A stretch of DNA of 36,686 bases from Ferruginibacter sp. (GTDB lineage: Bacteria; Bacteroidota; Bacteroidia; Chitinophagales; Chitinophagaceae): NCBI GenBank assembly GCA_025351645.1, contig JANXVN010000144.1, forward strand, positions 1 to 36,686. Direction: 5' to 3'. Both the position numbers and the translations under genes were made by a program. Below the pieces are notes generated by a model. The model ran no database searches and was not told where the DNA came from. It saw only the letters and a program-made list of their open reading frames with translations. Positions 5,204 through 36,686 of the stretch are shown here, one piece after another (the stretch's first letter is position 1; the number at the start of each line of letters is the position of its first letter).

Positions 5204-5325
5204 TGTAAAAACTTTTAAATATTAAATAAAAACTCTAATGATTTAGTTAGTACAATGAACTGAATACAGACTTGAAAAAAGGCATTTATCAGCTAGCGAC
5301 GAAATACAAAACCATTATAGCAATA

Positions 5326-5333
5326 CAAATGTA
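5326..5333 (-). promoter_or_regulatory. Candidate -7 box of the RRM gene
   Basis: The minus strand reads TACATTTG, a perfect match to the Bacteroidetes TAnnTTTG box. No TTG is found at the expected upstream distance; the DNA there is a T run. If used it gives a leader of about 115 nt. Confidence 0.3.
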
Positions 5334-5371
5334 GCTATTTATTTAAAAAAAAAACTATTTTCAACAAATAT

Positions 5372-6988
5372 TCATATACCAGATTTTTCTAGTATCATCT
5401 GTGCCAAACGGCTGTCTCTTTGGTAAACATCTTTTCTAAAATTAAGCTTTCCCTGCCTGTCTACCCATGCGGTAAAATAGGCAATAAACACTGGTATCGT
5501 GGTTTTTAGCGTTACGTATTGTTCAGTGCCTTTTTTCATGGCGGCGTTTATTTTGGCATCGTCCCAATTTTTGTCATTCCTTAAAAGATACTGCGCCAAT
5601 CGTTTAGGTTCTGCCAACCGGATGCAGCCATGGCTAAATGCCCTGTTGTTTTCTTTAAACAATGATTTTGCCGGCGTGTCGTGCAGGTAAATACTATGCG
5701 AATTTGGAAACAAAAATTTTACCAGCCCCAACGAATTATTTGGCCCTGGTTTTTGCCGCACGTTGCCATTATTCCATTCCATATTATGCTGCTCTAAATA
5801 ATTGCCATTTTTTTTTATAGCTGGCAAAGTTTCATTTTTTAAAATACTAGCAGGTATATTCCAGTAAGGGCTAAAAACAATATACTTCATGTCGCCATTA
5901 AAAATTACAGTTTTATGCTGGTCTTTGCCTACTACAACATTTATGTCAAAAGCTAAACTACCGTTCTCGTATACGTGCAATTTGTACTCTGGTATATTCA
6001 CCGCTAAATAATCGCCGCTTGGTTCAATAGGCAGCCACCTGCTGCGTTCCATATTTACCATTATTTGTTCAATCCTTTTTTCTACCGGATAATTCATTTC
6101 ATTTATCAGCGCAGCGTTTACAATACCATCTTCTTTGAAACCCAGCCTTTGCTCAAAACTTTTAACGGCGCTTGTTAAGATATCATCAAAAATAGTAGAT
6201 CCGCTATTTTTTGTTAAGTCTCCTAGCTGGAACAACCGTTCCCGTATAGCCAATACTGTAGCCGAAGAGTCTGCCAGCTTATACAATTTTTTATCTGCCT
6301 TAATAGGTTCAAGCTTGCCTTGTACTTTTAAGTTGTTGTACTTTTTTAAGTACTCTTTCAATAAAGCGTATTGCCTGTATGTTGGCGAATTATCTAAAAA
6401 GTTTTTGCCGCTTCCTAATGAGTCAAGCAACTGCTGGCTACTTATTTTTTTGCGTGGCAGCAGCCATTCCGTTGCCAGCGATTGTTTTTCGCTTAAGCCT
6501 ACCCATACATTTTTTGCATAGGCTAAATATTGCGAAGTCAGCATCAGTTCTACTGTTGGCGCTATTTTATCACTTCCTTCTTCAGTTTCCATCAAAGCAC
6601 TAAAAGCTGTTTTGTACGGCACTGAATCAGGTATGCCTTCATCGCTAATATTTAAAATACGGTTGTATAAGTTATTGGCTGGCTCAATCATCCCTTTATC
6701 GTCGTACCATGCATATGCGTAATTTCTGCCTTTATAAAAACCAACAATATCTTTTTGAAATGCCTTGAATTTTGGGAAACTATCCAGGAAAGATTTTATT
6801 ATAGCGCTATCGAATTTGATTTTTGTCTGTGCACTAAAGCTGCCGGGTATGCCCATTTCTTTGGCTGTAGCTTTTGGTATAGAATCGTTAGTTGCTATAA
6901 CAGTTTTTACCTGGCTTTTGCAATTGGCAAAAGCAATGCCTGTAAATAAAAAGACTATTGTGATAAGCGTAAAATTATTGTTAGGCAT
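5372..6988 (-). CDS. Murein L,D-transpeptidase (YkuD family)
   Basis: This is a 538-aa L,D-transpeptidase of the large YcbB/LdtD type, which makes 3-3 cross-links in peptidoglycan or attaches proteins to it. The N-terminus has a hydrophobic export segment ending near FANCKS. A peptidoglycan-binding-like region follows (DDILTSAVKSFEQRLGFKEDG). The YkuD catalytic domain has IYLHDTPAKSLF and the active-site block FSHGCIRL with nucleophile Cys455. I chose ATG at 6988; the open frame extends 17 codons further to a TTG, but that extension lacks signal-peptide character. The Cys in FANC could be a lipid anchor, but the preceding residues are not a classical lipobox. It is a single gene between the RRM gene and a repeat-rich spacer. 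Confidence 0.88.
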   Translation of the reverse strand: MPNNNFTLITIVFLFTGIAFANCKSQVKTVIATNDSIPKATAKEMGIPGSFSAQTKIKFDSAIIKSFLDSFPKFKAFQKDIVGFYKGRNYAYAWYDDKGMIEPANNLYNRILNISDEGIPDSVPYKTAFSALMETEEGSDKIAPTVELMLTSQYLAYAKNVWVGLSEKQSLATEWLLPRKKISSQQLLDSLGSGKNFLDNSPTYRQYALLKEYLKKYNNLKVQGKLEPIKADKKLYKLADSSATVLAIRERLFQLGDLTKNSGSTIFDDILTSAVKSFEQRLGFKEDGIVNAALINEMNYPVEKRIEQIMVNMERSRWLPIEPSGDYLAVNIPEYKLHVYENGSLAFDINVVVGKDQHKTVIFNGDMKYIVFSPYWNIPASILKNETLPAIKKNGNYLEQHNMEWNNGNVRQKPGPNNSLGLVKFLFPNSHSIYLHDTPAKSLFKENNRAFSHGCIRLAEPKRLAQYLLRNDKNWDDAKINAAMKKGTEQYVTLKTTIPVFIAYFTAWVDRQGKLNFRKDVYQRDSRLAQMILEKSGI

Positions 6989-9127: not shown

Positions 9128-12100
9128 TTAAGGCGCTTCAACCGACACTCGTATGCCATCGCTGTTGCTGGTAAACTCCGGCGCGTACATGCATTGTATG
9201 CTGGTGATTCCGTTGCTGAAATTGCCGGCGTGGGTAACAAACATAGTGTACTCGAACACGTAGCTGCCGCGGGGCAACTGCCCAAAGAAAAAGTTAGTGC
9301 TGGCATCTTTGGTGGTTTCGTAATAGCCAAGCCCGCCCTGCCATTTATATTGGCTGATGACGTTGGTTGGCTCCATGCAGGCAGCACGCATGTCTTTCAT
9401 GTGCACGTATTCCATATCCCTGTCTACTTTTAATTCGATGCGCACTTTTACTTTGTCGCCTATTTTTAGTTCTGCGCCATTGGTAATGGGTTGTAAAACA
9501 GGGCCTTTGTCTGTATTTTTTTCGATGAACAATTTTTTAATGACTTGCAGCGGAGTGCTTGCAAAAGTTATTTTATCAAGGCCTTCAAAATATTGCCAGT
9601 AAACACTGCCCCATGAAGCGCCATTGTTCGCTGAAACAGGGTTGGTGGTGGCTATTGGTTTAACGGTTACAGCAATATTGCCCATTTGCGGCGTTACCTT
9701 TTCTCCTTCAATTATTTTTTTGAAATAGCCGGTGCCTGCTTCGGTTTTATCATCGGTGCTTTTGATGGCTGTGCTGCCCACATTAATGGTTACTTCTTTT
9801 TCTGCTGCCAAATTATTGGTGCCACTTAGTAGTAATGCGTAGCAAGCCTCTGCAGTGGCTTTGGTGGTGCGCCAATTTTGGGTTTGCTTTTGTTTTAGCA
9901 GCCATGTCTTTAAGTCGTTTATAGTATTGGTATTTTTATCGATGTCAGTAAAGGCTTCTATCATTAACGCCTGGCTTTCAATTGGCGCCTGGTACCAGTA
10001 ATAGCCGCCGTTGGCCCATTCTTTCCAGTACATGCCCAGCTCATTATTGCTGATGCTATTTTCTTTTAATGATTTAATGATGGCTTTTGGCGTTGCCTCA
10101 TCTTTAGTGCGGTTTAACGCCAATGCAATCATTGCCTGCAGGTATTTACTATTGCTTAACCAGTATTTTTTTGCTTGCTCGCGGTAATAGGTATACGCAG
10201 TTTGAGCTACTGTTGCAATAGGCGTTTCGGTGAAAAAGCTTCTCATATACAAATACTGGATAGCTGTATTGCTAAGGTTATTGTTAGCAAGTTTTGCTTT
10301 GTACTTTGTAAGGTTATCGTACTCTTCTTTTATTTTTTTATCAAGATAAGGCATTGCTTTATTGGAGATGCCCATGATATCTTTTAACTGGTTTTCGTTA
10401 TTGCCATGCAAGGCATTTAGTTTTTTTAGATGGCCGATACCGGTGATAATGTATTGGGTAATAAACCTGTCATCCGCGCCGCCTTTAAACCATACAAAAC
10501 CGCCATTGCTGCTTTGCATATCTTTTAGCTTGGCGATGGCTTTATCGGTTTCGCTACCCATCTTTACCATGTCGAATAACAAGGCTATATTTTTCTTTTG
10601 CTGGCTTTCATTTTGTGCTGCCAATACCCAGGGAGTTTCTTGTAACAAGGCTGCTTTTAGCTCTTCATTTTTTTGCAGGTTACTTAATAAGGCTGCGGTA
10701 TCGCCCCCTTTCCCCGCAATGGGTGAAATCCATTGATCGAAAACGGCTTTAATTTTTGGCATGCTGTTGCTTACATAAGTTGCAAGCGTATTGGCGTAAT
10801 ATTTATTAAAAGTTTGCTCTGCGCACTCGTACGGATACTCCATTAAATAAGGCAATGCTTGTACTGCATACCAGGTGGGGTTGGAGGTGTACTCAACCGT
10901 TAGCGACCGGTTGGTAATGGTTTGGCTACTGCCGCTGTTCAACAATTTATCAAAAGTAAAGGCCCGGGATGTTTCGTTGCGAAGGTTGATGGGCATTGAT
11001 TCTGTAACCAGCATGCGGTTGGTTAAAATTGGTATGGCCATTTCTTCCCCATCGGAGAAAATACCCCCGTCGCCTGAAGGGGTGTTATTTGACGACTTCG
11101 CTGTTATTCGATAGGTCATGGCGGAGTTAAAGTTGAACGGTATTTCTATGGGGAATTTTACTGCTGCGCTTTGCCCGGCTGCTACCGTGAAATATTGTGT
11201 TGGAAAAACATTTTTAAACCATCCATCTATTGGTTTATTGGTGGCTGCATCCAGCAATTCTAATTGTGTTGTGCCTGTTACTTCTTTATCGCTCAGGTTC
11301 ACTATTTTAGCACTAAATTCTATGCCATCGCCTTCCCTTAAAAAGCGTGGTGCATTGGGTTGCACCATCAATGGCTTTTGTGTTACGGTTGTTTTTTCAA
11401 GATAACCGCTTGCTAAATTTTTGGTATGCGCAAAAGTCATCAGTTTCCATTGCGTTAATGCTTCTGGTATGGTGAAGGAGAAAGAAACATTGCCGGCTGC
11501 ATCTGTTTTCAAATCAGGGAAGAAGAAGGCAGTTTCGTTGAAGTTTTTGCGGATTTGGATAGATGGGTTTTGGATTTGTGGTTTATTGTTTTTTGTTACG
11601 GATGTCGAATCTGCTTCTACAGTATTGTCGCCTTTAATTTCTTCTATTTTTTCATCCGCTACAACTTGTCCATCTTTTACAATTTTTGGAGGAGTAAATT
11701 TTATTTGGTTAATTTCCGCAGGAGATGCAACGACACCCGCTACTCTGCCTTGCAATGCGTTATTAAGAACAACATCCTTTCTTTTTACAATTCCATAACC
11801 TCTTACAATAATTTCATCTAATCCCATATTTAGAGGAAATAGCTCATCATAAGTTTTTGCAGGTACCCCAACATATTCATTTTCTCTCCGGTAATAATCT
11901 TCAGAATTCACTCCTTGAAATCCATTGCCATCCCAACTAACACTACTACTTATTGAAGGCCAAATATTTAATGCACTCCAACTATGCGGCTTAAACTGGT
12001 CCAGGCTTGCATCGTACATACTTGCCAATATTTCTGCTGCTACTTTTTCGCCTTTGCTGCCGCTTATTTTTACTGTCCATTTTTCTTCGCTGCCGGGCAA

Positions 12101-15100
12101 TAATTTATCACGGAAAGTTGAATAGTCAATTTTTAATTCTTTGTTGCTCCACGGAATATCAAAACTTTCTTTGCCTTTATACACCCTGTTGTGCTGCACA
12201 AATGCGTAACTAACAGCCATGCCTCCACGGTCAGTTTCATTAATTGAAATTTCTTTTTGGTAAGGCTTATTTGTTGTGATAGGCTGGTACGTTGTATTGT
12301 TGATATTATCAATTTTAGTTAGCGAATGGATCAGCCAAATGTTACTAAAACCCGTAGCGATATTGTACACTATCTTTTCGCCCGGTTCGGCATTGTCTTT
12401 TTCAACCCTAACTTCTATTGGTTCAAAAGATGGTTCCGCTTTTGTGTTGTTGTATAACTGCACATATTTTTCTGCTTTTACCTCTTCACCATATTTATCT
12501 TTTGTGGTGGCTACAATCTTGTACCAGCCTGATTTTAAATCAGCCCCTTTTATTGCTACAGCTGTGTTAGTACTGTTAAGTTTTTCATACACTTTACCAG
12601 CCACTTCATAGTTTTTTACTTTATCCTCATCCCTATAAACATCATACGGAAAGTAGCCATAGTATTCATCTTTGCTCATCACAAACTGGTCAGGCTGCTG
12701 CCAATACCGTTCCCTAAAAACTTTAGAAGGTGTTTTTAATTGCTGGATGGTTACAGTTGCGGTTGTTTTTTCTTCAATGCCATTAAGGTTGGTACTTTTA
12801 ATGGTGATGGTTTTTAGGCTATCGATGGATAATTTTTCTGGTACATTAATTTCAAGCTGCAGCATTTGGTACGCTACGGCAACAAAAGCATTGCCGCTCC
12901 TTGTTTCGCCGTTAATATCTGTAATGTCAGCATTTACTTCGTAGTAAAAAGTAGGCTGGCTTTTTTTATCAATGCTTTCATCCGGCAAGGCTTTAAAGGT
13001 GATATGGAATTCGCCTTTAGCATCAGTTACTGCTTCGCCATTGGTAATTTCCATTTGGCCGCCCTGCCTGCCGGGAGGCGAAAACTTTCTTCCAAATAAA
13101 GGATAATCCCCATCCCACCAAATGGGGTAACGTACTTTGCGCATCACGCTGTAACTAACCTTTGCGCCATCGATATTATTGCCTGCATAAGCTTTTGCCG
13201 TGCCCGTAATTTTAATGCTATCCAATAAGCGGTACGTACCCTTTGGCTTTTGCACATCTACAAAAAATTTAGGGCGCTTATATTCTTCTACATTAAAATA
13301 TTGGGAAGTTTCGCTGGTAGTATCGTATAAGCTAAACTGCCCGTTCAGCGTACCTTCCAGTAGTTTAAAGGAACCATTGTACGAACCAAATTCATTGGTT
13401 ACCAATTGCACTTCACTTACTTTTTGGCCATTAGCATCTTTTAATTGTATAGTTGTGTTGAATGATGGAAGGATAGCTGTCTCATTGGCTTTACTGCCTT
13501 TTTTTAACACAATGCCTTTAAAAAAAATTGTTTGTCCGGGGCGATAAATAGAACGGTCGGTAAACAAAAAAGTAACCGGTTCGACCTTGTCTGGCTGCTC
13601 AAAACTGTTGTAGTAATTGTTGTAATTATTGTCATCTAAAAAAAGTTCTTCACCAGCATACTTTATTTGAAAATTTATATTCCTGTAATCTTTTGTTTTT
13701 TTTAATTTGAATAACCCATTTTTATCTGTGGTATAATTCTCTGCTTTGATATCTTCATTTTGGCTGGTAGTATAATTGTATTTGCTCAACCAAACCTGCA
13801 CCTGCGCATTGTTTAAAGGCTGGCCGTTATCCCTGTTCAATACATAATAATCGTTATCGTTATTGTGTAAGAGGCTGATATTGGTGATGTAGGTTAGTTG
13901 TTTAGCAATTATGTTTTTTTGCACAGAAAAACTTTCATCGAGGCTTGATAGGATGTAGTACATGCCAGCCGGCAATCCATCTATTTTAATTTCAGCCGAA
14001 TGGCGTTGATAATCCTGTAAGTCAGGCAAAGCAACGCTCCATATTTTAATAGGTTTTAGGGCAACAATATCTTTCCATGTTTTATCATAATCCCGGCCGT
14101 TTGTTTTTTTAATTTCTTCCTTAGATGTTTTGATGAGGCGGAAATAAACAGCCTTTGTATTTTTATAACTGATCAATGTACGGAACGGCAGCCCTGGTAC
14201 ATTTACTTTTTCTGTCTCTAACTTTAAGGATGGCTGTAAAATTTCTTTCAATAAATTTTGAGCATTAATACCACCTTCGCTTTTTGGAAATTTTTGATAA
14301 GCTGCTTCACATAATTCTCTGGCTCTTTTAATTTCATATTGATCAGCGGTTTTAGTCAATGGCTCAAATTGCTGCCCACGCTCATTATAAATTTGTGCCC
14401 TTAAATACATGGCTTGTGCTGCAGCAGGGTTCGTGCTATATTTATCTTCTATATTTTTTAAGGCAGCTTCGTATAATTTGCTTTTGTCTTCGTTTACGGC
14501 ATGTCCGTTCACAAAGTTTAAACGTATCAAATCCGCATCCAGCAAGGCATCCGCGTTATTATCTTTTAAATGAAATTTTAAAATATCATGCAGTAATAAG
14601 ATGGCTTTCTGCTGTAAAGATGCCGTATCTTTTGTAGCAAACGAAGCAGTTGCAAACTCCGCCGCAGGGGCAAATGCTTTAGGGTTATCAATGATGAATT
14701 TATATGCTGGTTTGGTAAGTTCCTGCTCATCATCCATAAAATAACGTAACGCCCTAAAAGCTAAAAAATCGTATAAGGTTGGCCTTAGCTGCCGGGTATT
14801 TTCTCCTTTTAGAATGATAGGTTCAAAGCCATCTAATTTGGTGGATTGTAATGCTGTTTCATTAGTAAGCGAGGCCTTGTATAATGAACTGATGGTTGCA
14901 TGTAATTTATCCAGGCTCCAGGTGCTGATGTCGTTGCTTTTTTCTTCTGTTAGTTTTGTACGATCATAAAATTTATAACGGTTGTTTTGAAGGTATTGCC
15001 AAAACATCTCTGCCTGCATATTTTGTAAAATATTTTTGGCGGGTGTTTTTGCCTTTGCAATCAGCGTATCTAAAAAAAAAATATTGTTTTCACGGCTATC

Positions 15101-15346
15101 CTGCTGTACCATATTGCGATATTTTATCTGGTAGATGGCGCTCTTTATTTGCTGCGCATCATTGTTGTCTTTTAAAGCCAGATTATAAATTACCAGCACT
15201 TGCTCCAGTGCAGATTTTGTAAGCCCTTTTTTTTCAATCGCGTCAACTTTTTTCCAGTTGGTTGCGTAATCGCTTTTTGTTTGTGCCATGGTTGCCGTAA
15301 ATATAGTTGCCGATAAAAATAGCAGGAATAATTTCTTTAAAAGCAT
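9128..15346 (-). CDS. Giant exported alpha-2-macroglobulin family protein
   Basis: This is a 2072-aa protein with a signal peptide (MLLKKLFLLFLSATIFTATMAQ) and the layout of bacterial alpha-2-macroglobulins, which trap proteases through a bait region and a reactive thioester. An MG2 domain begins near residue 594 (TDRSIYRPGQTIFFKG). The A2M domain follows near 1265 (ETAFFFPDLKTDAAGNVSFSFTIPEALTQWK). The thioester is present as PYECAEQTFN, with Cys at about 1508, in an alpha/alpha toroid. Two oddities: residues about 1175-1208 read like the plug of a SusC TonB receptor (LDEIIVRGYG, then LQGRVAGV), and residues 1418-1428 are encoded by a REP-like repeat. I chose ATG at 15346; a TTG two codons upstream is also open. 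It stands alone with its own terminator and no penicillin-binding protein 1C gene next to it. Confidence 0.93.
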   Translation of the reverse strand: MLLKKLFLLFLSATIFTATMAQTKSDYATNWKKVDAIEKKGLTKSALEQVLVIYNLALKDNNDAQQIKSAIYQIKYRNMVQQDSRENNIFFLDTLIAKAKTPAKNILQNMQAEMFWQYLQNNRYKFYDRTKLTEEKSNDISTWSLDKLHATISSLYKASLTNETALQSTKLDGFEPIILKGENTRQLRPTLYDFLAFRALRYFMDDEQELTKPAYKFIIDNPKAFAPAAEFATASFATKDTASLQQKAILLLHDILKFHLKDNNADALLDADLIRLNFVNGHAVNEDKSKLYEAALKNIEDKYSTNPAAAQAMYLRAQIYNERGQQFEPLTKTADQYEIKRARELCEAAYQKFPKSEGGINAQNLLKEILQPSLKLETEKVNVPGLPFRTLISYKNTKAVYFRLIKTSKEEIKKTNGRDYDKTWKDIVALKPIKIWSVALPDLQDYQRHSAEIKIDGLPAGMYYILSSLDESFSVQKNIIAKQLTYITNISLLHNNDNDYYVLNRDNGQPLNNAQVQVWLSKYNYTTSQNEDIKAENYTTDKNGLFKLKKTKDYRNINFQIKYAGEELFLDDNNYNNYYNSFEQPDKVEPVTFLFTDRSIYRPGQTIFFKGIVLKKGSKANETAILPSFNTTIQLKDANGQKVSEVQLVTNEFGSYNGSFKLLEGTLNGQFSLYDTTSETSQYFNVEEYKRPKFFVDVQKPKGTYRLLDSIKITGTAKAYAGNNIDGAKVSYSVMRKVRYPIWWDGDYPLFGRKFSPPGRQGGQMEITNGEAVTDAKGEFHITFKALPDESIDKKSQPTFYYEVNADITDINGETRSGNAFVAVAYQMLQLEINVPEKLSIDSLKTITIKSTNLNGIEEKTTATVTIQQLKTPSKVFRERYWQQPDQFVMSKDEYYGYFPYDVYRDEDKVKNYEVAGKVYEKLNSTNTAVAIKGADLKSGWYKIVATTKDKYGEEVKAEKYVQLYNNTKAEPSFEPIEVRVEKDNAEPGEKIVYNIATGFSNIWLIHSLTKIDNINNTTYQPITTNKPYQKEISINETDRGGMAVSYAFVQHNRVYKGKESFDIPWSNKELKIDYSTFRDKLLPGSEEKWTVKISGSKGEKVAAEILASMYDASLDQFKPHSWSALNIWPSISSSVSWDGNGFQGVNSEDYYRRENEYVGVPAKTYDELFPLNMGLDEIIVRGYGIVKRKDVVLNNALQGRVAGVVASPAEINQIKFTPPKIVKDGQVVADEKIEEIKGDNTVEADSTSVTKNNKPQIQNPSIQIRKNFNETAFFFPDLKTDAAGNVSFSFTIPEALTQWKLMTFAHTKNLASGYLEKTTVTQKPLMVQPNAPRFLREGDGIEFSAKIVNLSDKEVTGTTQLELLDAATNKPIDGWFKNVFPTQYFTVAAGQSAAVKFPIEIPFNFNSAMTYRITAKSSNNTPSGDGGIFSDGEEMAIPILTNRMLVTESMPINLRNETSRAFTFDKLLNSGSSQTITNRSLTVEYTSNPTWYAVQALPYLMEYPYECAEQTFNKYYANTLATYVSNSMPKIKAVFDQWISPIAGKGGDTAALLSNLQKNEELKAALLQETPWVLAAQNESQQKKNIALLFDMVKMGSETDKAIAKLKDMQSSNGGFVWFKGGADDRFITQYIITGIGHLKKLNALHGNNENQLKDIMGISNKAMPYLDKKIKEEYDNLTKYKAKLANNNLSNTAIQYLYMRSFFTETPIATVAQTAYTYYREQAKKYWLSNSKYLQAMIALALNRTKDEATPKAIIKSLKENSISNNELGMYWKEWANGGYYWYQAPIESQALMIEAFTDIDKNTNTINDLKTWLLKQKQTQNWRTTKATAEACYALLLSGTNNLAAEKEVTINVGSTAIKSTDDKTEAGTGYFKKIIEGEKVTPQMGNIAVTVKPIATTNPVSANNGASWGSVYWQYFEGLDKITFASTPLQVIKKLFIEKNTDKGPVLQPITNGAELKIGDKVKVRIELKVDRDMEYVHMKDMRAACMEPTNVISQYKWQGGLGYYETTKDASTNFFFGQLPRGSYVFEYTMFVTHAGNFSNGITSIQCMYAPEFTSNSDGIRVSVEAP
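11065..11095 (-). repeat. REP-like repeat (CCCCTTYAGGGG family) inside the macroglobulin gene
   Basis: On the minus strand these 31 bases match the copies at 21575-21605 and 35090-35120 at 24 of 31 positions each, without gaps. The core is CCCCTTCAGGCGACGGGG. It is translated in frame as SSNNTPSGDGG, between strands reading YRITAK and IFSDGEEMAIP. It therefore looks like an in-frame insertion that the protein tolerates. Confidence 0.7.
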
Positions 15347-15502
15347 AATCAATAGAGTTTAAATACAAGATACAATTTGTTGAAATGGGATGTTATTTTG
15401 TTGTGGAAATATAACATTTGTGGTAAGATGAAAGAACGGCAGGATTTACATAATAATTTTCCAGGTTAAAACCCGGGGCAATTTAAATAAGCCAATGCCC
15501 AT

Positions 15503-18192: not shown

Positions 18193-18310
18193 GGGCGCAC
18201 CCTTTGGGGCCGGGCTATCCACAGTACTCCGCAGCGCCGTATCAATAGTTCAGCTTCGCAAGGTAATAGTAAACGGCGCTTTACGGGGTACTTGCTCCTA
18301 TCCCTTGCGC
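18193..18310 (+). repeat. Multi-branched palindromic element, copy A
   Basis: An outer stem GCGCA (18195-18199) / TGCGC (18306-18310) closes the element. Inside is a long arm, AGTACTCCG-C-AGCGCCGT (18223-18240) pairing with ACGGCGCT-TTA-CGGGGTACT (18273-18292), with one G-T pair and a small bulge. The flanking blocks GGGCGCACCC, GGGGCCGGGCTATCC and GCTCCTATCCCTTGCGC match, in order, blocks of copy B at 35649-35796. It is the G+C-rich part of the gene-free stretch 18101-18590. The remainder shows a GTAACC/GGTTAC pair, a small TATCCT/AGGATA hairpin and the 21-nt A-rich string. Confidence 0.7.
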
Positions 18311-35191: not shown

Positions 35192-35599
35192 ATGAAATAT
35201 CAACACGTAATATCCCGCATATCAATTTTTTTGCTATCCTTTGTAATGATTATTTTCGGCATACTTCATTTTGCCCATCCCAGAGACCTTGTTAATTATG
35301 TGCCCGCATTTTTGCCCGGCGGCATCATCTGGGTATATTTTGTAGGCGCAGCATTTATATTGGTAGCGCTTGCCTTTTTAACCAACACAATGGTAAAAGC
35401 TGCCGGTTATATTTTGGCAGGCCTGCTTTTTATTTTTGTGCTCACCATCCATTTGCCAAATTTTATGGAAGCTAGCAATGCAGAAGCAAAACAAATGGCA
35501 CTCATCAGCATGCTGAAAGATACTGCGATAGCGTGTTTTGCGCTTTACATCGGGGCAGGGGCCTATCACCAAAAACTAAATATGGATAATAGCGATTAA
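35192..35599 (+). CDS. DoxX-like small membrane protein
   Basis: This is a 135-aa protein with four membrane segments at about 8-27, 43-63, 67-87 and 105-124. The first segment ends GILHFAHP and is followed by a FLPGG turn, the arrangement of the DoxX/DoxD-like family. Members sit in the inner membrane; some take part in redox or quinone-linked functions, but most have no proven role. It starts at ATG 35192 after a plausible promoter. The NDH-2 gene follows in the same direction but 368 bases on, so a functional link is only suggestive. Confidence 0.75.
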   Translation: MKYQHVISRISIFLLSFVMIIFGILHFAHPRDLVNYVPAFLPGGIIWVYFVGAAFILVALAFLTNTMVKAAGYILAGLLFIFVLTIHLPNFMEASNAEAKQMALISMLKDTAIACFALYIGAGAYHQKLNMDNSD

Positions 35600-35648: not shown

Positions 35649-35796
35649 GGGCGTGCCCCAAGCCGCTGCGGCAAGGGGCTGGGCTCTTCCCGTCCGAACC
35701 GGTTCATCCGGGCGGGCACTTCAATCTTTTTGCAGTAGTAGCCTGCCGATGCTAAAAGTATTCCGCAAAAAGGATTTCCGTTGCTATCCCTCACGC
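35649..35796 (+). repeat. Multi-branched palindromic element, copy B
   Basis: An outer stem GCGTG (35651-35655) / CACGC (35792-35796) encloses three hairpins: GCCCC-AA-GCCG/CGGC-AA-GGGGC at about 35655-35679; CCCGTCCG/CGGGCGGG at 35689-35716 around an AACCGGTT palindrome; and AATCTTTTTGC/GCAAAAAGGATT at 35723-35776 with one bulged base. Blocks GGGCGTGCCC, GGGGCTGGGCT and TGCTATCCCTCACGC align with copy A at 18193-18310. It accounts for most of the gene-free stretch 35600-35967; the rest is A+T-rich with no signal I can name. Confidence 0.75.
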
Positions 35797-35967
35797 GGGG
35801 CGCATCCGGTATAAAAATTATTATGCCCAGCTTAAAGTTACCAGCCTCAATAAAATAAAAAAGCGGTATCTAATTTGATGACCCATAAATTGCAACATTT
35901 AAAAGCGAAAATTGTTAAATCTTTTACTTGCTAATATTTTAGGCCTTTAATTAAAAATAAATACTAA

Positions 35968-36686
35968 ATGAAAATAGTTATAATAGGTGGTGGTTTTGGA
36001 GGCGTTAACCTTGCTAAGGCATTAGCCAACATAAAAGGCTTTGAAGTACTGCTGATAGACAAAAATAATTATAACTTTTTTGCCCCACTCATCTACCAGG
36101 TGGCAACAGCTTTTTTAGACCCCACCAGCATTAGCTACCCATTTAGAAAATTATTTGCAGGTAAACACAATATTGGTTTCCGCCTGGGCGACGTAAAAAA
36201 AATAGTACCCGGACAAAATAAAATTGTGCTGGAAGATGGCGAAGTGGAATACGACCAATTGGTATTTGCAACCGGTGCCGAAACCAATTACTTTGGTATG
36301 GAAAACGTAAAGCAGCATGCCATACCAATGAAAACTTTATCAGATGCGCTTGAAATGCGCAACCGTTTATTGGAGCAAATGGAGCAAGCCACCATTGCTA
36401 CCGACCCGTTTGAAATAAAAAGGCTGTTAACCATAGTAATAGCCGGTGGAGGCCCAACTGGCGTTGAACTAGCGGGTATGTTTGCTGAAATGAAAAATGG
36501 CATATTGCGTAAAGAATACCCTATGCTGGCAGGCAAAGGCGGCGAAATTTATTTGGTTGATGGCGGCAAAGTTGTGCTTGCACCCATGAGCAACGCAAGC
36601 CAGCACGATACTTTTGAGGCATTGACTAAACTAGGCGTAAAAATAAAACTCAACTGCCAGGTGAAAGATTATGTAGATGGGCGGGT
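35968..36686 (+). CDS. ndh: Type II NADH dehydrogenase (NDH-2), 3' end outside the window
   Basis: The first 239 codons of a single-subunit NADH:quinone oxidoreductase are present; the gene runs off the right edge. The FAD-binding motif is MKIVIIGGGFGGVNLAKAL at the start. NYNFFAPLIYQVATAFLDP is the typical NDH-2 block with the conserved PLxYQVA. YDQLVFATGAETNYFG closes the first FAD half. The NADH-binding motif is VIAGGGPTGVELAGMFAEM near residue 155. NDH-2 feeds electrons to menaquinone without pumping protons. The quinone-site and C-terminal membrane-binding parts would lie beyond the window. ATG 35968 follows a very A+T-rich leader. Confidence 0.92.
   Translation, partial: MKIVIIGGGFGGVNLAKALANIKGFEVLLIDKNNYNFFAPLIYQVATAFLDPTSISYPFRKLFAGKHNIGFRLGDVKKIVPGQNKIVLEDGEVEYDQLVFATGAETNYFGMENVKQHAIPMKTLSDALEMRNRLLEQMEQATIATDPFEIKRLLTIVIAGGGPTGVELAGMFAEMKNGILRKEYPMLAGKGGEIYLVDGGKVVLAPMSNASQHDTFEALTKLGVKIKLNCQVKDYVDGR

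Follow-up and report, generated by a model that had tools for sequence, protein, structure and literature searches.

A branched palindromic element between two genes

The window, the whole stretch of 36,686 nucleotides that we analysed, carries a multi-branched palindrome (copy B) in the gap between two codirectional genes (Table 1). The original prediction described at this place a GCGTG/CACGC stem around three hairpins, and each of these parts could be located: we call the outer stem S1 and the hairpins H1, H2, and H3. In copy B, H3 stands on an AATC/GGATT foot. The same blocks had been said to recur at 18.2 kb with arms that differ and still pair. We found this second element (copy A), in which 2 of the 5 outer stem pairs are altered on both sides relative to copy B and H2 is absent. 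Neither window copy has an unusual folding energy: as DNA, z is −0.55 for copy B and −0.84 for copy A, and copy B folded as RNA gives −0.76. What rises above chance is recurrence and covariation, rather than folding energy. Elsewhere in the window, the minus strand holds a 2074-aa open reading frame (9128–15352).

Table 1. Positions of copy B, its parts, copy A, and the neighbouring genes in the window.
Feature	Position	Strand	Remarks
Upstream neighbour ORF	35192–35599	+	135 aa, no Pfam match
Whole element, copy B	35649–35796	+	strand as presented; Flavo-1 reads on the minus strand
Outer stem S1, 5' arm	35651–35655	+	GCGTG; covariation
Hairpin H1	35656–35678	+	CCCC..GGGG with inner GCCG/CGGC; free-sequence arm
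Stem S2, 5' arm	35681–35683	+	GGG; partner CCC at 35788–35790
Junction segment	35684–35689	+	CTCTTC (usual form CTATYC); slot 1 for H2
Hairpin module H2	35690–35717	+	flush at slot 1
Long arm, 5' side of core	35718–35726	+	ACTTCAATC, conserved
H3 tip	35727–35771	+	CTTTTTGC..GCAAAAAG type; above usual length in copy B
Long arm, 3' side of core	35772–35790	+	GGATTTCCGTTGCTATCCC, conserved; last bases are the S2 3' arm CCC
Outer stem S1, 3' arm	35792–35796	+	CACGC
Rfam RF01705 (Flavo-1) match	35702–35806	−	29.4 bits (threshold 42), E 0.00028
Copy A	18193–18310	+	same frame as copy B
Copy A, S1	18195–18199 / 18306–18310	+	GCGCA / TGCGC
Copy A, H1	18200–18208	+	
Copy A, S2	18212–18214 / 18302–18304	+	GGG / CCC
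Copy A, inner arm	18224–18291	+	unrelated to that of copy B
Downstream neighbour ORF	35968–36684	+	pyridine nucleotide-disulphide oxidoreductase; runs off the window

The long arm of the element is Flavo-1

The prediction depended on further copies in the genome, and there are many. A blastn search of the own genome gave 60 matches to the element, a lower bound since 40 of 114 candidates were scored. Exact right-end motifs number 31 there, versus 0 for the reversed pattern. The minus strand of the inner part of the element is the Flavo-1 motif of Rfam (RF01705). Scoring 150 of 990 candidates against this model, we found at least 69 matches in the own genome, 57 of them at or above the Rfam threshold, and none in 14 control genomes.

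The window copy itself, which has an extra hairpin and a long tip, lies under the RF01705 cut-off. Among 15 scored loci, seven copies without H2 in slot 1 reached 49–61 bits and four with H2 in slot 1 reached 29–35 bits; a variant without H2 (L026) scored 28.7 bits. The core stems and fixed loop positions of Flavo-1 were confirmed in 28 aligned copies from the own genome and two other groups, and the window copy, which lies outside this alignment, keeps the core sequence. We therefore call it a homologue of the threshold-passing copies and not itself a threshold member. Copy A has no match in Rfam at E ≤ 10; some members of the family thus escape the Rfam model.

The likeness to RF01705 (PMC2864571) thus concerns the long arm on the minus strand. 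The 76 positions of the model cover this arm only, without the S1, H1, and H2 of the full element, and the family is filed as an RNA of Bacteroidetes, whereas the present element is DNA-like and is also found in genomes titled as spirochaetes. Across copies, the full frame consists of S1, H1, GGG/CCC, the long arm, and S1', that is, a three-way junction. The Flavobacterium-type architecture has a four-base bulge at the position of H1 and CCCG/CGGG at the position of GGG/CCC.

In PMC2864571, Flavo-1 is a candidate from comparative genomics, listed as likely RNA and not cis-regulatory; PMC9029176 names it, without a function, in a section on the most abundant sRNA families. The Flavo-1 core is thus known already. 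The open-licence papers, as far as their text was available, held no description of the sequence words or of such repeats beyond Flavo-1 and subclass 2.6 of TnpA-REP. Nor did we meet there the three-way frame, the purine-mismatch pattern read as DNA, the arm replacement and slotting, or the occurrence in spirochaetes.

Two observations concern the flanks. A semi-conserved tail of the TTCaatnCGnatAGTATtcG type, about 20 nt past the CACGC of S1', follows many own-genome copies, and the repeat thus extends beyond the stem. Runs resembling heptamers, AACTCCTAACTTATAACTCATAACT for example, occur in the left flanks of elements in L002, L018, L080, L090, L101, L111, and L117; they are possibly another repeat family.

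A patchy distribution that includes genomes titled as spirochaetes

RF01705 matches are patchy, being found in 9 of 30 relatives: G019 has 106, the own genome 69, and the seven others between 1 and 4 each. In a sample of 198 genomes of the phylum, with 22 candidates scored in each, 28 had matches, and a scan of named sequences gave at least 80 loci, mostly from Flavobacterium and other Bacteroidota. The original prediction had suggested similar elements in other Bacteroidetes, and these counts bear it out.

Among the named-scan matches listed, nine loci come from six assemblies titled as spirochaete groups. We counted matches in the genomes behind seven loci (150 candidates scored each) and found 11, 150, 86, 140, 138, 86, and 77. 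Six of these genomes, with 11–150 matches, are titled as spirochaetes (one of them as Leptospirales), and one is titled as Bacteroidales. A stray contaminant contig is unlikely because the matches spread over many contigs, yet the assemblies are metagenome-derived. blastn searches in plasmids (two queries) and phages (one query) gave no match.

Elements can be nested or placed in tandem. In G425, to which a locus titled 'Spirochaetia bacterium' belongs, some elements are nested or chained via a CTGGTCG..CTGCTCGCCC hairpin (L470, 6701–6792; L474, 483–649). Flavobacterium sp. Leaf82 carries a tandem Flavo-1 pair 221 bp apart (L370, around 5252–5493), identical over the element as compared and with near-identical flanks.

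The arms covary around fixed, strand-polar mismatches

Covariation of the arms was the other property on which the prediction depended. In the own genome, 36 of 56 parsed stretches had a perfect partner for the outer stem; 2000 permutations gave a mean of 8.8 and at most 19. We had removed 24 of the 80 stretches parsed, which lacked core evidence, and the 56 still include some false or double parses. In the named set, parsed with the core pattern, S1 was perfect in 27 of the 28 elements that fit the AGG/AAG rule of the S1 frame, with 13 different stem sequences (permuted mean 5.5, maximum 13; 2000 permutations); the other 53 of 81 elements do not fit this rule and were left out. On 20 chosen contigs of G425, 31 of 42 elements had a perfect S1, where 1000 permutations gave 16.0 on average and 27 at most; two of the 42 come from nested copies parsed twice. 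The arms do covary.

We aligned the core of 28 copies: 12 from the own genome, 3 from G019, and 13 from the close pair G054/G232. Paired cells made up 95.1%, against 78.9% in shuffled alignments, and the covariation score was 0.457 against 0.157; 0 of 500 shuffles reached either value, with the reservation that cells are sequences and not events, so that one inherited change may count many times. Slid versions of the alignment reached at most 49.7% paired cells and a covariation score of 0.119. Two of the five shuffle measures were within chance, namely pairs with a two-sided change (251/500) and further pair types (499/500). Helices 1 and 2 (seven pairs, 196 cells) showed 50 two-sided changes, no one-sided (G.U) change, and one unpaired cell; helix 3 had 4 U-G cells, which we read as a misaligned variant. 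Compensatory stem changes, by which structured elements in general are recognised, are thus present in both S1 and the core helices.

Four A.G/G.A oppositions on the Flavo-1 strand show no variation across the 28 aligned copies; a fifth is found in 22 of 28, and the remaining six have a gapped variant. The pairs that flank these mismatches covary. The opposite strand would show C.T oppositions, and the fixed pattern is therefore strand-polar. Folding is also better on the Flavo-1 strand than on its complement: 33 of 36 copies show this as DNA, and 29 of 36 as RNA. The mean folding z of own-genome copies was −3.39, for copies selected for a perfect S1 and against mononucleotide shuffles. The H2 stem carries a mostly conserved T.G pair on the strand as presented, which is an A.C mismatch on the Flavo-1 strand. 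Mismatches in own-genome S1 stems showed no excess of G.T over A.C (2 versus 3 of 230 pairs, in a parse that contains a few truncated copies). The suggestion that fold rather than sequence is conserved is thus no more than partly right, since the core and its purine mismatches keep their sequence.

Arm or tip replacement at two orthologous loci, and H2 flush in slots

We aligned 13 orthologous pairs of the close pair and dropped one (L217/L214) that shared a single flank. An arm or tip was replaced in 2 of the 12 usable pairs. In L201/L210, the whole arm was replaced, and the nearest 60 nt on either side were 94% identical (wider flanks, 93%). In L205/L208, the tip was replaced between 60-nt neighbourhoods that were 99% identical (wider flanks, 79%). 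Both changed G232 loci carry the identical 30-nt tip, and two more G232 copies have it within two mismatches. This tip was not found in the G054 loci examined at up to two mismatches, although a 17-nt form is present there once, at one mismatch; the G054 partners have tips similar to those of other copies in both genomes. Whole-unit arm replacement, as at these two orthologous loci, can thus be the source of part of the covariation, in place of stepwise compensation.

A single pattern found 42 copies of H2 in the own-genome loci examined, a count that misses some variants, for example those in slot 1 of L009 and L028. Thirty-three of the 42 have the same orientation and are flush with one of three helix junctions: slot 1 holds 11, slot 2 has 2, slot 3 has 18, and a further 2 lie between slot-1 and slot-2 sequences where H3 is absent. 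Of the 9 others, 4 look slot-3-like by eye. A search of about 2.0 Mb of loci from other genomes gave no H2. Such a mosaic accounts for the presence of H2 in copy B and its absence from copy A.

Presence and absence between species

At a first locus, 4.1 kb of G199 were compared with 199 genomes of its genus; 30 loci were examined, 22 of which had both flanks. Three were filled (G199, G283, and G315), 15 lacked the element, with abutting flanks in 7 and a 2–11 nt gap in 8, and 4 carried a different repeat. At a second locus (20 genomes searched, 17 compared), only G232 and G315 had the element. By eye, nine of the other 15 carried one type of palindrome, five a second type, and one a short spacer. 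The palindromes in the slots of L167–L178 and L415–L431 differ by species and are of the AAGTCGAAAGTC, TAGTGATTAG, CACATAGAAACATAG, and GTCATTTCGACGAAGG types. The intergenic gaps behave as if they were interchangeable slots for hairpins.

The close pair gave 25 matches in G054 and 40 in G232 (150 candidates scored each). Eleven of 25 examined G232 loci had no match of more than 300 nt among the 25 G054 element loci, and five of these 11 were aligned to G054. One, the clearest polymorphism, showed a 74-nt deletion inside the element, between ATAG repeats; the other four comprised one decayed G054 element, two complex differences, and one single-sided alignment. Loss was thus seen once, and there was no clean gain among the five. 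A MITE would have terminal inverted repeats, a target-site duplication, and a parent transposon. The element has an outer stem; the loci compared across species showed no clean empty site or insertion with defined ends and no clean target-site duplication, and no parent was found among the half sites and neighbouring ORFs examined. At L243 of G232, compared with L249 of G054, G232 has several hundred extra bp that contain a small lipoprotein-like ORF followed by an element.

None of 68 own-genome copies pairs with another at 95% identity or more over at least 90 nt. The family in this genome is therefore old or fast-changing and shows no sign of recent dispersal. In G425, this level is reached by 6 of 42 elements, of which 4 or more are double parses.

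Gene context: RNA, host function, or DNA

We scored the orientation of the element relative to its neighbours with a simple ORF caller, using 68 elements of the own genome and 49 of G054/G232; 5 in each group lacked a gene on both sides and were dropped, and 9 in each group overlapped an ORF. There was no clear bias: the downstream gene pointed the same way as the Flavo-1 strand in 24 of 63 cases in the own genome and in 20 of 44 in G054/G232, the upstream gene in 31 of 63 and 20 of 44.

These counts bear on whether the element is a structured RNA, as filed in Rfam. In that case the Flavo-1 strand would be transcribed, as a small RNA or as part of a UTR. Its nomination by comparative genomics (PMC2864571) fits such a role, as do the good covariation of the core and the better folding of one strand. 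According to a transcription map of F. psychrophilum (PMC9723704), several 5' transcribed regions coincide with Flavo-1 hits. The same source, however, reports the hits indistinctly in sense and antisense, without a consistent strand, and many of them outside transcribed regions. Mismatches of the A.G type, frequent in RNA, would suit an RNA as well, but codirectional genes are not preferred, helices 1 and 2 contain no G.U step in 196 cells, and the copies are numerous and dispersed. Taken together, the orientation data, the F. psychrophilum map, and the Flavo-1 listing favour DNA, short of proof, and we consider an RNA unlikely. The original prediction had offered a structured RNA, a mobile element, or a chromosome-organising site; the first of these, which is also Rfam's filing, is weakened by the missing orientation bias, by the missing G.U steps in helices 1 and 2, and by the F. 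psychrophilum map.

The element could instead serve the host at each site where it is found, as a DNA or mRNA hairpin that is selected at gene ends like REP/BIME and acts as a bidirectional terminator, an mRNA stabiliser, or a site for a nucleoid protein. The copies are mostly intergenic and lie somewhat nearer to stops than to starts (median 115.5 versus 162 nt in the own genome, 86 versus 118.5 nt in G054/G232), and other species carry other palindromes in the same slots. In addition, G232 and G315 have the same element sequence over 91 nt, in a locus that is 89% identical over 1476 nt, which points to constraint, exchange, or transfer. A host function would nevertheless have to accommodate an element that few related species share at the two compared loci and that is patchy among genomes, and it leaves the flush H2 modules and the arm replacement unexplained. 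We therefore rate it, too, as rather improbable.

Search for a mobiliser

A third candidate is a REP-type element moved by a Y1 (RAYT) transposase, for example of TnpA-REP subclass 2.6, which in Bacteroidetes has atypical flanking structures (PMC6006769). With REP/BIME and the TnpA-REP of subclass 2.6/group 5, the present element shares many intergenic strand-polar hairpins per genome, the phylum, and the report of atypical structures, and a single-strand logic would be common to both. Y1 genes do exist near some copies: one in the own genome, broken by a stop, lies 1.6 kb from a weak Flavo-1 match, one in G183 about 1 kb from a good match (L268), and one in G171 2.0 kb from a match. Also reminiscent is the mode of insertion of IS200/IS605 elements, whose joints are flush and without obvious duplication, like those of H2.

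Yet such proximity is rare. A threshold Flavo-1 match lay within about 1.5 kb at 1 of 30 Y1 loci from 13 Flavo-1-rich genomes and at 0 of 7 in the own genome, some of these neighbourhoods being cut by contig ends; in G054 and G232, 0 of 9 Y1 matches were within 5 kb of Flavo-1 (nearest about 5.8 kb). G113 and G167 are rich in Flavo-1 (22 and 21 matches, 22 scored each) and have no Y1 match; the other 13 genomes tested do have Y1. Among the relatives, Y1 occurs in 24 of 30 versus 9 of 30 for Flavo-1, and in most of those that are free of the element. The three-way junction with its modules is a further difference from REP. We rejected a RAYT-borne REP element on the rarity of Y1 flanking and the absence of Y1 from two rich genomes, and regard it as very unlikely. 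The comparison with IS200/IS605, which is one from general knowledge, also has its limits: H2 is likewise flush, after an ATYC-like or TTTCC slot sequence, but no transposase is linked to the element, and its ends are not defined.

No recurrent family emerged when we clustered 785 ORFs near 198 element positions. Only ordinary families were present, the largest clusters being by eye ABC ATPases and short-chain dehydrogenases. Again, no element-linked gene family was found among 311 ORFs from 20 G425 contigs and from further loci of the seven counted genomes and the named scan. An autonomous form, with a gene between half sites, was rejected as well: 45 partnerless halves were by eye variants missed by the pattern or chance matches, with no gene between.

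Discussion

Our preferred reading, which we put forward tentatively and at somewhat less than an even chance, is that of a modular, structured DNA element with dispersed copies and with Flavo-1 as its long arm, which would act as a folded single strand and be rearranged by a putative activity. It builds on observations: the copy number, the covariation, the mismatches on one strand, the lack of a clear orientation bias, the presence and absence between species, the two arm or tip replacements, the flush H2, and the occurrence in genomes titled as spirochaetes. When the DNA becomes single-stranded, in replication, repair, or transfer, the Flavo-1 strand would fold into a three-way junction made of the outer stem S1, the free arm H1, and the long arm with its fixed A.G/G.A mismatches. 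Recombination between copies, or a putative single-strand recombinase working on the folded strand, would swap tips and arms as units. The same activity on the folded strand would set hairpin modules such as H2 flush at helix junctions. We infer single-stranded DNA as the acting form, the existence of a dedicated protein, and the route by which copies would reach new sites.

Functionless palindromes, spread and homogenised by replication template switching and by gene conversion that make the arms match, would account for perfect arms without G.U steps and for arm replacement and slippage deletion, but such arm-correcting processes should erase the A.G/G.A mismatches that are fixed in 28 of 28 copies, which makes this explanation highly improbable.

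The structured DNA element may also be taken further. It is possible, though we lean against it, that Flavo-1, instead of being an RNA, forms the core of a class of modular structured DNA in Bacteroidota and Spirochaetota, the arms of which would be transferable modules, inserted flush and exchanged by a single-strand activity other than Y1. Covariation would then record the exchange of modules rather than stepwise compensation and so could not, by itself, identify an RNA. If this is true, a catalogued 'small RNA' family becomes a DNA element and provides a direct test of compensatory changes that arise without RNA selection. It would hint that Bacteroidota and Spirochaetota may possess an activity that recombines single-stranded DNA, and would caution against covariation alone as proof of an RNA.

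Integron attC sites are folded single strands with conserved unpaired positions and free variable stems, and the present element resembles them in these respects. It differs in that S1 is of 13 types without a fixed R box and in that there is no orientation bias relative to genes.

Four Flavo-1 matches are clustered within about 4 kb in G019 (L127, contig C102, 6099–10396), next to a cNMP-binding protein and to a pair made up of a HigB-like toxin and an HTH protein. This toxin-antitoxin-like pair prompted an integron-like cassette as a candidate, which was dropped because S1 lacks a fixed box and the upstream gene is codirectional in no more than 31 of 63 and 20 of 44 cases. Finally, a XerC/D-like tyrosine recombinase was recognised by eye in the 2.5 kb neighbourhood of the element at L229, L245, L329, L331, and L364, at least three of which are the same orthologous place.
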